Below, piece after piece: positions 37,197 to 43,485 of a stretch of DNA of 64,000 nt (positions are counted from its first letter, which is position 1; every line of letters begins with the position of its first letter). Made by a program: the position numbers and the translations under genes. The stretch is from positions 1-64,000 of the forward strand of contig NZ_JAINVH010000015.1 of assembly GCF_020400825.1 (NCBI RefSeq), in the 5' to 3' direction. The stretch comes from Streptomyces sp. HPF1205. GTDB lineage: Bacteria > Actinomycetota > Actinomycetes > Streptomycetales > Streptomycetaceae. The notes beneath the pieces are model-generated. The model did no database searches. It was not told the DNA's origin and was given only the letters and a program-made list of their open reading frames with translations.

Positions 37197-38108
37197 ATGG
37201 ACAGCCCTGCCGAGACCGGCGACGAGCGTTTCCGTGCTCCCCTGATCACTTCGGGTGGCCGGCGGGCGGTTCTGTTGACGTCGGACGGCGTGCCGATCGA
37301 GGCCGAACACCGCCCCGCGCAGGACGATTCCGGCCATCTCGCGATCGTGGTCGCGCACGGTTTCACCGGGGCGCTGGACCGGCCCGCGATCCGCGCGGTC
37401 GCGCGGCGGATGTCCGGGTTCGGCGCGGTCGTCACGTTCTCGTTCCGCGGGCACGGCCGCTCCGGCGGGCGCTCCACCGTCGGCGACCGCGAGGTGCTCG
37501 ACCTCGACGCCGCCGTCGTGTGGGCCCGCTCCCTCGGCTACACCCGGGTGGCCACGCTCGGCTTCTCCATGGGCGGCTCGGTGGTGCTGCGGCACGCCGG
37601 CCGCACCGGGCCGGTCGCACCGCGGGCCCGTACGGACGCGGTGGTCGCGGTCAGCTCGCCGGCCCGCTGGTACTACCGGGGGACCGCCCCCATGCGGCGC
37701 CTGCACTGGGTGGTCACCCGGCCCGCGGGACGGCTCGTCTCCCGCGTCGGCCTGCGCACCCGCGTCCACTCCCGCGAGTGGGACCCCGTACCGCTCTCCC
37801 CCGTCGAGTCGGTGCCGCACATCGCGCCGACCCCGCTCCTCGTCGTCCACGGCGACCGCGACGGCTACTTCCCGCTCGACCACCCCCTGTCCCTGTTCGA
37901 CGCGGCCGACCCCGCCACCAGCGACCTGTGGATAGAACGGGGCTTCGGCCACGCCGAGAACGCGGCGGACGCCGCCCTCCTCTCCCGGATCGGGGAGTGG
38001 CTGCGCCGCAGCACGTCGCAGGCACCCTCGCCCGTCACGGCGGACCCGGTCCGCACGGAGCCGCCCGCGGGGACCGGGCATGATGGACGTCGACACGACG
38101 AGACGTGA
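37197..38108 (+). CDS. Alpha/beta hydrolase
   Basis: A 303-aa serine hydrolase of the alpha/beta fold, in the cytosol. The oxyanion region is VVAHGFTG, the nucleophile elbow is GFSMGGS (Ser in G-x-S-x-G), a likely acid is in [11 protein letters not shown], and the catalytic His is in GFGHAEN. The substrate is unknown. ATG 37197 opens the predicted operon, since the MoaD-like gene starts 11 bases after its stop. A 10-bp inverted repeat (37102-37111 with 37151-37160) lies in the divergent region shared with glnR. Confidence 0.88.
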
Positions 38109-38119
38109 GGGAAACGCTC

Positions 38120-38401
38120 ATGGCAGCAGCCGAGAGGGCCGCGGCGGCGGGGACGATCCGCTACTGGGCCGCCGCGAAGGCCGCCGCGGGGACGGCGGAG
38201 GAGCCGTACCGCGGGGCGACCCTCGCCGACGCCCTGGCCGAGGCCCGCGCCCGCCACGACGCGGAGTTCGCGCGCGTGCTGGGACGGTGCTCGTTCCTGG
38301 TCGACGGCACCCCCGTGGGCACCCGGGAGCACGCGAGCGTGCCGCTGCCCGACGGCGGCACCGTCGAGGTGCTCCCCCCGTTCGCGGGAGGCAGCGCGTG
38401 A
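38120..38401 (+). CDS. MoaD/ThiS-family protein
   Basis: A 93-aa beta-grasp protein of the MoaD/ThiS sulfur-carrier family (GTIRYWAAAKAAAGTAEEPY, then LVDGTPV and VPLPDGGTVEVLPPFAGG). Working carriers end in Gly-Gly, which is adenylated and then thiocarboxylated. This one has two more residues after it (GGSA). Either a protease trims it, as for some JAMM-processed carriers, or it is not a carrier. ATG 38120 follows GAGGG. Its stop overlaps the next gene's GTG by 4 bases. Confidence 0.8.
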   Translation: MAAAERAAAAGTIRYWAAAKAAAGTAEEPYRGATLADALAEARARHDAEFARVLGRCSFLVDGTPVGTREHASVPLPDGGTVEVLPPFAGGSA

Positions 38402-40883: not shown

Positions 40884-40913
40884 GTGACACCCGCCCTTCG
40901 GTGTCCCTACGAT
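40884..40913 (+). promoter_or_regulatory. Predicted promoter of the sulfurtransferase leader
   Basis: GTGACA (40884-40889) and TACGAT (40908-40913) are 18 bases apart and fit the principal (HrdB-type) consensus. Transcription would begin about 7 bases later, at or next to the A of the leader-peptide ATG (40921), giving a leaderless message. The upstream stretch CCATACGGACAATCTTGTCT (about 40847-40866) is A/T-rich for this genome and may bind a regulator. Confidence 0.6.
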
Positions 40914-40920
40914 CGAGCGC

Positions 40921-41001
40921 ATGAAGCGACAGGCGGACCTCACGAAGCGGCGGGCAGTCGACCTGTGCCGCGTTGCCGCCATGCTCTGTCGCATGTCCTA
41001 G
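40921..41001 (+). CDS. Cysteine-containing leader peptide (26 aa)
   Basis: ATG 40921 to TAG 41001 encodes a 26-residue peptide: MKRQADLTKRRAVDLCRVAA followed by MLCRMS. It is too short for a usual gene call. The basic head and the DLCRVAAMLCR end with two Cys codons (TGC, TGT) fit the short actinobacterial leader peptides found before sulfur-metabolism genes. Ribosome stalling at Cys codons when cysteine is scarce would control read-through to the sulfurtransferase at 41154. The ATG appears to be at the transcription start, so translation would be leaderless. No Shine-Dalgarno precedes it. Confidence 0.8.
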   Translation: MKRQADLTKRRAVDLCRVAAMLCRMS

Positions 41002-41153
41002 GGCGCCGCGCCTCCCGCGCCGCTTCCGGCCGGCCCGGCCCGATCCGGGTGCCGCCCGCGCCCCTCACCTGACGCCCGCCCCGGCGCGCGCAGCCGCGCG
41101 CCCCAGCAGATCCACGCGCATCCGCAATCCGCACTGCCCCGGAGGAGAACAGC
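41002..41153 (+). promoter_or_regulatory. Possible attenuator between leader peptide and sulfurtransferase
   Basis: The 152-base gap is very GC-rich and can fold strongly. It contains a perfect 8-bp stem with loop CAGC (41083-41090 with 41095-41102), and another inverted GGCC/CCGG-rich stretch near 41027-41052 that could pair alternatively. There is no T-run. GGAGGAG directly before the sulfurtransferase ATG is the ribosome site. Confidence 0.55.
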
Positions 41154-41990
41154 ATGAGCCGCAGTGACGTCCTGGTCGACGCCGACTGGGTCGAGGCCCA
41201 CATCGACGACCCCAAGGTGGTCATCGTCGAGGTCGACGAGGACACCTCGGCCTACGACAAGAACCACATCAAGAACGCCGTCCGCATCGACTGGAAGCAG
41301 GACCTGCAGGACCCGGTCCGCCGCGACTTCGTCGACCAGGCCGGCTTCGAGGCCCTGCTGTCGGCCAAGGGCATCGCCAACGACGACACGGTCGTGCTGT
41401 ACGGCGGCAACAACAACTGGTTCGCCTCGTACGCCTACTGGTACTTCAAGCTCTACGGCCACGAGGACGTCCGCCTGCTCGACGGCGGCCGCAAGAAGTG
41501 GGAGCTGGACTCCCGCGACCTGGTCGCCGCGGTACCCGAGCGCCCCGCCACCGAGTACAAGGCCAAGGCGCAGAACACCGCGATCCGCGCCTTCCGCGAC
41601 GACGTCGTCGCCGCGATCGGCTCGCTGAACCTGGTCGACGTGCGCTCGCCCGACGAGTTCTCCGGCAAGCTGCTGGCCCCCGCGCACCTGCCGCAGGAGC
41701 AGTCGCAGCGCCCCGGCCACGTGCCGACCGCCCGCAACATCCCCTGGTCGAAGTCGGCCAACGACGACGGCACCTTCAAGTCGGACGACGAACTGAAGGA
41801 GCTGTACGAGAGCGCGGGCGTGGACCTGTCCAAGGACACCATCGCGTACTGCCGGATCGGCGAGCGCTCCGCGCACAGCTGGTTCGTCCTGCACGAGCTG
41901 CTGGGCCAGCCCAACGTGAAGAACTACGACGGCTCGTGGACCGAGTACGGGTCCCTGGTCGGCGTGCCGATCGAGCTCGGCGCCAACTGA
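41154..41990 (+). CDS. Thiosulfate sulfurtransferase (rhodanese)
   Basis: A 278-aa two-domain rhodanese that moves sulfane sulfur from thiosulfate to an acceptor. The inactive N-domain spans about 5-130; the C-domain (about 150-278) has the active loop CRIGERS, with Cys233. It matches the actinobacterial type often labelled cysA (SCO4164 by position). It lies behind the cysteine leader peptide and is followed by DUF1416, a usual partner. The start ATG follows GGAGGAG. Confidence 0.95.
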   Translation: MSRSDVLVDADWVEAHIDDPKVVIVEVDEDTSAYDKNHIKNAVRIDWKQDLQDPVRRDFVDQAGFEALLSAKGIANDDTVVLYGGNNNWFASYAYWYFKLYGHEDVRLLDGGRKKWELDSRDLVAAVPERPATEYKAKAQNTAIRAFRDDVVAAIGSLNLVDVRSPDEFSGKLLAPAHLPQEQSQRPGHVPTARNIPWSKSANDDGTFKSDDELKELYESAGVDLSKDTIAYCRIGERSAHSWFVLHELLGQPNVKNYDGSWTEYGSLVGVPIELGAN

Positions 41991-42033: not shown

Positions 42034-42324
42034 ATGTGTGGAGCGAAGGCCGGCGGCCCGGATCTGGCAGGAGTTGACGTGGCGAACGAGACGATCATCC
42101 AGGGTTCGGTGACCCGCGACGGCGAGCCGGTCAGCGGCTACGTGCGGCTGCTGGACGGCGGCGGCGAGTTCACCGCGGAGGTGCCGACCTCCGCGACCGG
42201 GCAGTTCCGCTTCTTCGCGGCCCCCGGCACCTGGACGGTGCGCGCCCTGGTCCCGGGCGCCACGGTGGACCGCACGGTCGTCGCCCAGCAGGGCGCGGCG
42301 GCGGACGTCGCCATCGCCGTCTGA
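42034..42324 (+). CDS. DUF1416 protein
   Basis: A 96-aa conserved actinobacterial protein that almost always follows the rhodanese gene. After MCGAKAGGPDL comes a single carboxypeptidase-regulatory-like beta sandwich (IIQGSVTRDGEPVSGYVRLL, then GTWTVRALVPG). The Cys at position 2 could take part in sulfur transfer; this is inference. It lies 43 bases after the rhodanese gene and before a strong terminator. Confidence 0.92.
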   Translation: MCGAKAGGPDLAGVDVANETIIQGSVTRDGEPVSGYVRLLDGGGEFTAEVPTSATGQFRFFAAPGTWTVRALVPGATVDRTVVAQQGAAADVAIAV

Positions 42325-42780: not shown

Positions 42781-43143
42781 TCAGTAGACGAGTGCCTGCG
42801 TCCCGTCCGTCATCGCCTCGCTGACGAAGACCTGCGCCCCGGCGATCCGCACTCCCTCGATGACGTCGGCCTCCCCGATGTCACGGCGGGCCGCGCACTG
42901 CGTGCACAGCGTCACCGTGCCGCCCGCGAGCACCGACTCCAGCAGATCCGGCAGCGGCGCGGAGTGCGGCAGCTCGAACCCCGCCGCCCGCCCCGGCAGC
43001 GCGAACCACGCCGACTCCCCGGTGAGCCACAGCGACACCTCGACCCCGCTGGCCACCGCGACCGCCGCCACCGTGAACGCCTGCGAGCACCGCTCCGGCG
43101 CGTCCGCACCGGCCGTCACCTTGATAACGAGCCTCTTCGCCAT
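42781..43143 (-). CDS. DsrE family protein
   Basis: A 120-aa DsrE/DsrF-like sulfur-relay fold (LVIKVTAGADAPERCSQAFT, then LCTQCAARRDI). The Cys pair CTQC lies where active DsrE proteins carry their sulfur-accepting Cys. It fits the sulfur theme of the neighbouring rhodanese, but it is on the opposite strand and has its own transcript. The partner is unknown. Confidence 0.85.
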   Translation of the reverse strand: MAKRLVIKVTAGADAPERCSQAFTVAAVAVASGVEVSLWLTGESAWFALPGRAAGFELPHSAPLPDLLESVLAGGTVTLCTQCAARRDIGEADVIEGVRIAGAQVFVSEAMTDGTQALVY

Positions 43144-43380: not shown

Positions 43381-43485
43381 GTGCGCATTGAGTACTACTT
43401 CGACGCCTTGCTGGTGCTGGTGTGCCTCGGCGTCGCCGCCTTCACGCTGTACGTGGTGAAGAAGCTCTACCAGGGCCAGCGCTGA
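43381..43485 (+). CDS. Conserved 34-aa membrane protein
   Basis: GTG 43381 to TGA 43485 encodes 34 residues: VRIEYYFDALLVLVCLGVAA then FTLYVVKKLYQGQR. It is one transmembrane helix with an acidic aromatic head and a basic tail, so Nout-Cin topology is expected from the positive-inside rule. GAGGAG lies 10 bases upstream. The stop is one base from the ATG of the nitrobindin gene (43487), so the two are one transcript and probably coupled. I believe Streptomyces relatives carry the same small gene here. The function is unknown. Confidence 0.8.
   Translation: MRIEYYFDALLVLVCLGVAAFTLYVVKKLYQGQR

Follow-up and report, generated by a model that had tools for sequence, protein, structure and literature searches.

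The 64,000-nt stretch of contig NZ_JAINVH010000015.1 from Streptomyces sp. HPF1205 analyzed here (hereafter the window) contains a presumed operon of two genes which, like all features below except where indicated, is on the forward strand. The first gene (41154–41990) encodes a sulfurtransferase of the CysA/SseA type with two rhodanese domains (pfam Rhodanese, 114.8 bits, two stretches) and is preceded by the Shine-Dalgarno (SD) sequence GGAGG (41141–41145), which is conserved in the alignment; the second gene (42034–42324) encodes an SseC-like DUF1416 protein (pfam DUF1416, 132.6 bits). Upstream of the operon are a sigma-70-type promoter (40884–40913), a 26-codon ORF running from ATG to TAG (40921–41001), and a 152-nt spacer (41002–41153). 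The neighborhood is rich in sulfur-related genes, given that a MoaD/ThiS-like, sulfur-carrier-type ORF (38105–38401) and a DsrE-family gene (42781–43143, reverse strand) are located close to the operon. The window also includes a 34-codon ORF, VRIEYYFDALLVLVCLGVAAFTLYVVKKLYQGQR (43381–43485), with an SD-like site; a tblastn search identifies matches in 22 of 80 related loci, with 56–84% identity in the best dozen, so that this ORF probably encodes a real small membrane protein.

The ORF upstream of the rhodanese gene translates as MKRQADLTKRRAVDLCRVAAMLCRMS. The preliminary description gave it 26 codons, two Cys codons and a 152-nt spacer, and placed the end of the -10 element at 40913 and the ATG at 40921, all of which agree with the sequence. 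The peptide alone matches the NCBIfam profile NF042933, “Ms5788A family Cys-rich leader peptide”, with a score of 45.0 bits (E-value 6e-12), exactly at the cut-off of 45, and scores slightly below it, 41.9 bits, in a six-frame genome scan; this cut-off is passed in 53 of the 200 Streptomycetaceae genomes. The second profile, NF042934, “putative leader peptide” (cis_reg_atten) of Actinobacteria, with a cut-off of 27, gives 30.1 bits for the peptide and 28.4 bits in the genome scan. The arrangement that is typical of the Ms5788A locus, namely a cysA-type rhodanese downstream of the leader followed by DUF1416, is present in the window as well. Leader matches are detected in all 35 genomes of the genus, in all 200 genomes (17 genera) of the Streptomycetaceae, in 169 of 296 genomes across the class (63 of 115 sampled genera), and in 17 of 296 genomes of a phylum-wide draw, with none in 14 control genomes. 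Among 80 named loci, 77 have the leader ahead of the rhodanese gene, and one of the others offers too little sequence for a decision; outside the Streptomycetaceae, the distance between leader and rhodanese is often longer, and a candidate gene lies in the gap. The leader ORF is real. Since it scores around the NF042933 cut-off and shares its cysA/DUF1416 locus with the mycobacterial leader, it is best placed in the Ms5788A family, whose mycobacterial members are reported to be cysteine-responsive attenuators; it is thus not new as a kind, albeit without the polycysteine tract.

The promoter, GTGACA-N18-TACGAT, is the sole promoter-like site between 40700 and 42500 (mean in shuffled sequences, 0.0), and its elements and their spacing are conserved in the Streptomycetaceae. 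The -10 element TACGAT (40908–40913) is separated by 7 bases from the ATG at 40921. Among the 154 Streptomycetaceae loci with a recognized -10, this distance is 6–8 nt in 135, including 116 with 7 nt, and a -35-like element lies 17–19 bp ahead of the -10; the spacing from the -10 to the start is retained also in lineages in which the N-terminus of the peptide, or its N-terminal codons, are different. Given the promoter and this conserved spacing, transcription is predicted to start on the leader ATG or no more than one base from it. In Streptomyces coelicolor, about 21% of the mRNAs are leaderless (PMC4895711).

The positions of the two Cys codons, counted from the core Asp codon (D, 40960–40962), are D+2 (TGC, 40966–40968) and D+9 (TGT, 40987–40989), the latter being the proposed sensor codon. 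The D+9 codon is TGT in 105 of 105 distinct Streptomycetaceae rhodanese leaders, in 68 of 71 leaders of other actinobacteria, and in 68 of 69 paralogous leaders that have Cys at this position; in the same three sets, the D+2 Cys codon is TGC in 100 of 105, 63 of 70, and 18 of 20, respectively, with the class-wide counts referring to the loci that fit a strict core pattern, which missed 33 of 153. Ordinary codon usage is ruled out as the source of TGT: in the rhodanese genes, Cys is encoded by TGC in 233 of 233 cases, and the long downstream ORFs have TGT at 19 of 148. Pairing of TGT with the ACAGC preceding the rhodanese start was likewise rejected as a general cause, because TGT is equally fixed in the paralogous leaders of other genes. 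As judged from these counts, selection at D+9 acts on the codon itself. The genome encodes a single tRNA-Cys, with the anticodon GCA, so that UGU is read by wobble. No mention of a fixed-TGT rule was found in the searchable literature, which does not prove that it is unreported.

The peptide core, R-R-x-V-D-L-x-R, together with the Cys nine codons after the Asp, recurs in the leaders of other genes. The same genome contains three more leaders of the wider family, which precede a sulfite/nitrite-reductase-like gene, a gene for a cysteine-synthase-type PLP enzyme and, at a distance of about 0.7 kb, a rhodanese-like gene. Across the paralogous leaders, the Asp of the core never changes and lies at a constant distance from the Cys, and the Arg at D+3 is preserved although six different codons are used for it (CGC, CGT, CGG, AGG, AGA, and CGA); the invariance of the Asp and this variety of Arg codons indicate that the amino acids of the core are selected. 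In three paralogous leaders, L204, L205 and L206 (two with RNGLTRRLHIDLLRVSSAY and one with TPLLTSRRHIDLLRVCSAI), exactly the sensor position, at which nearly all other leaders have TGT, is occupied by a stop codon (TAG, TGA and TGA, respectively).

The spacer, at the end of which the rhodanese gene starts after GGAGG, is C-rich and is not unusually structured. The preliminary description had viewed it as foldable GC-rich RNA; the GC-richness is confirmed but special folding is not, because the spacer folds slightly worse than its dinucleotide shuffles (192 of 200 are at least as stable; z-score +1.69), so that its foldability reflects composition rather than structure. An Rfam search of the window yields no match, and on the basis of this result and the z-score, we reject the spacer as a structured RNA element. 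The claim that a T-run terminator is missing holds, with no terminator-like sites between 40700 and 42500; accordingly, the intrinsic terminator with a T run that defines classical, trp-type transcription attenuators is not found in this interval. The spacer varies strongly among the compared loci, both in sequence and in length (108–425 nt), and the block flanking the SD is conserved. In many Streptomyces loci (L053–L132), the leader stop is followed by two short inverted repeats (GCGGGA...TCCCG and GGCCC...GTCAGGGCC), which are not evident in the genus of the window.

Within the leader, the heptamer GGGCAGT (40952–40958), which spans the GCA Ala codon together with the final two bases of the Arg codon before it and the initial two of the Val codon after it, is the exact complement of ACTGCCC (41133–41139), which is part of the conserved non-coding block and ends one base before the SD. 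These two segments are the proposed arms of an SD-masking helix. A 7-base match between two such regions is unremarkable by itself, and the argument comes from comparing loci. In 126 distinct Streptomycetaceae loci, the helix cells are paired in 92.7% of cases, compared to 22.8–54.4% when the arms are slid by 1–3 positions, and there are 23 double-change cells, compared to 0–13 in the slid controls. The covariation amounts essentially to one base pair, at D-4, which is A-U in 83, G-C in 22 and G-U in 6 of the 126 loci. The Kitasatospora group and, as a separate case, L386 have the G-C pair (L128 is scored as G-C as well but in a shifted register); its label requires at least three changes on the tree, and double changes that turn A-U into G-C are seen in two or more lineages. 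The Ala codon that bears the D-4 base is GCA or GCG accordingly, i.e., the change is synonymous. The helix is absent in several clades (the albus/cacaoi group, L070, L375/L389, and L380). In L119, the block is otherwise retained but contains an A.C mismatch and, at its end, a U.C. The predicted duplexes between leader and SD region are stronger for matched than for exchanged partners, with none of 100 exchanges as strong in the Streptomycetaceae and none of 300 in other actinobacteria, in a comparison that corrects incompletely for the GC content and ancestry that the partners share; for the 19 polycysteine leaders alone, matched and exchanged duplexes do not differ (118 of 300 exchanges are as strong). 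In the duplex predictions, the leader bases CUC are also able to pair with the SD itself.

The explanation that is best compatible with these observations, to which we assign a probability of about 0.62, is that the leaderless leader controls the rhodanese-DUF1416 operon through translational attenuation, which would be mediated by the ribosome and respond to cysteine supply; SD masking is favored by the conserved complementarity between the leader codons and the SD flank. The ribosome-mediated attenuation suggested in the preliminary description thus survives in part: comparative evidence upholds a leaderless leader with Cys codons that most likely acts through ribosome position and without an intrinsic terminator, but not the spacer as a structured element. 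Under the proposed scheme, RNA polymerase would start on the ATG or one base away at most, and a ribosome would initiate on the 5'-terminal AUG. When Cys-tRNA is ample, the ribosome would clear the leader and GGGCAGU, as the comparison suggests, would pair with ACUGCCC beside the SD, resulting in little translation of the rhodanese. When Cys-tRNA is scarce, we infer that ribosomes would stall or form a queue at the Cys codons, most of all at the wobble-read UGU, and would cover the leader arm such that the SD is freed; the conserved peptide core may contribute to a sharper stall. The leader would probably allow the bacterium to make more of the sulfur-transfer enzyme when cysteine is short. 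In the 2020 work of Canestrari on Mycobacterium smegmatis, stalled ribosomes are said to prevent masking of the downstream ribosome-binding site.

Footprint estimates suggest that a ribosome stalled at the first Cys codon (40966) would cover the leader arm, and that a single ribosome with the UGU (40987) in its A site would not; with a ribosome stalled at the UGU, the arm would be covered if a second one queues behind. A ribosome-state folding model with blocked footprints was run on 157 loci. The mean predicted cost of opening the SD, for 142 loci, is 7.3 kcal/mol for the free RNA, 7.1 for a stall at the first Cys codon, 6.2 at the second, 6.0 at the second with a queue, and 6.8 at the stop codon, with a standard deviation of about 2 kcal/mol, and these energies single out no stall state.

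Rho-dependent transcriptional attenuation is retained as a rival because the spacer is C-rich: in the Streptomycetaceae, the mean C and G fractions in the stretch from -90 to -25 are 0.49 and 0.26, compared to 0.37 and 0.37 before the DUF1416 gene of the window. Here, the spacer would serve as a rut site, with a ribosome stalled on the leader blocking Rho and the transcript otherwise ending before the rhodanese gene, in line with the lack of an intrinsic terminator; Rho was already proposed in 2005 for the mycobacterial cys leaders (PMC1262725). We nevertheless consider this mechanism unlikely: the spacer varies strongly while the SD-flanking block is conserved, and Rho alone leaves the helix arm at the SD unexplained.

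A somewhat less improbable, still doubtful alternative is nascent-peptide arrest, in which the core R-R-x-V-D-L-x-R, located in the exit tunnel, would stall the ribosome at the UGU nine codons past the Asp, and the arrested ribosome, rather than simply tRNA charging, would read cysteine or another sulfur signal. The invariant Asp, the synonymously varied D+3 Arg and the constant Asp-to-Cys spacing of the paralogous leaders are all compatible with arrest, as are the many leaders with just one or two Cys codons and the three with a stop exactly at the sensor position; conversely, according to the review in PMC9031893, the response in M. smegmatis is reported to be governed by contiguous Cys codons and cysteine supply. 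In a tentative generalization, which we rate no higher than arrest itself, the actinobacterial cysteine leaders would constitute an arrest family, with the exit-tunnel core and the wobble-read UGU at a fixed distance forming a two-part cysteine sensor; if so, one rare codon would do the work of a polycysteine tract. That the peptide is instead a small protein acting in trans, with its position before the operon incidental, appears highly improbable: the strong conservation of the amino acid sequence across the class speaks for it, but the codons are constrained as well (GCA for Ala, TGT for Cys), both the leaderless promoter and the placement ahead of sulfur genes are preserved, and the N-terminal residues are free to vary.

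Candidate Cys leader peptides lacking terminators were predicted in 2005 for mycobacteria, Propionibacterium acnes and Bifidobacterium longum, in a survey that also covered the genomes of S. coelicolor and S. avermitilis and reported no Streptomyces cys leader (PMC1262725). A leaderless uORF before cysA2 was subsequently described (Shell 2015, PMC4633059), and cysteine-responsive attenuation in M. smegmatis was reported by Canestrari (2020), as related or cited in PMC9031893, PMC9094748, and PMC13236596. The 2021 leader table for S. lividans lists eight leader peptides, none of them for cysteine (PMC8079986). The metL leader in this set (MSTTSDRTPATEATTTPGARCMCRRMCAF), which is called methionine-dependent, contains three Cys codons (PMC8079986, Table 4) and could be a cysteine leader. 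With the attenuation proposed here under SD masking, a type of cysteine control known from mycobacteria would extend to the Streptomycetaceae, a family of antibiotic producers, for which it is not listed in these two surveys (PMC1262725, PMC8079986).

The leader shares with the mycobacterial Ms5788A/cysA2 polycysteine uORF the core LTKRRAVDLCRVA, the leaderless start (here predicted), the locus with the cysA rhodanese and DUF1416, the Cys codons near the stop, and the lack of a T-run terminator. In place of a contiguous Cys run, however, it has a TGC and a TGT separated by six codons, the Streptomycetaceae leader directly precedes the rhodanese, and the pairing arm consists of the RRAV codons; for several mycobacterial loci, the best of the predicted duplexes involves the Cys codons instead. 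NF042934 members have in common with it the core and the terminal Cys, as well as, in the cases from this genome, sulfur-metabolism genes downstream; this is, however, a broader domain model, most members of which differ in the core (RRHVDL) and in the following gene. The cysS attenuator of Rhodobacterales, uORFC-8-2 (PMC8632094), is similarly a short uORF with Cys codons as the presumed sensor, but these are tandem and UGC-dominated and are accompanied by a U-run terminator, in contrast to the fixed UGU and the missing terminator here. What stands out in the present system is the combination of the fixed UGU, the conserved peptide core, and a masking arm located in the RRAV codons rather than in a Cys tract. 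The Cys codon that is always UGU offers a testable hint at the way in which such leaders sense cysteine and, together with the core, turns the idea of stalling at Cys codons into tests of one codon and one residue.
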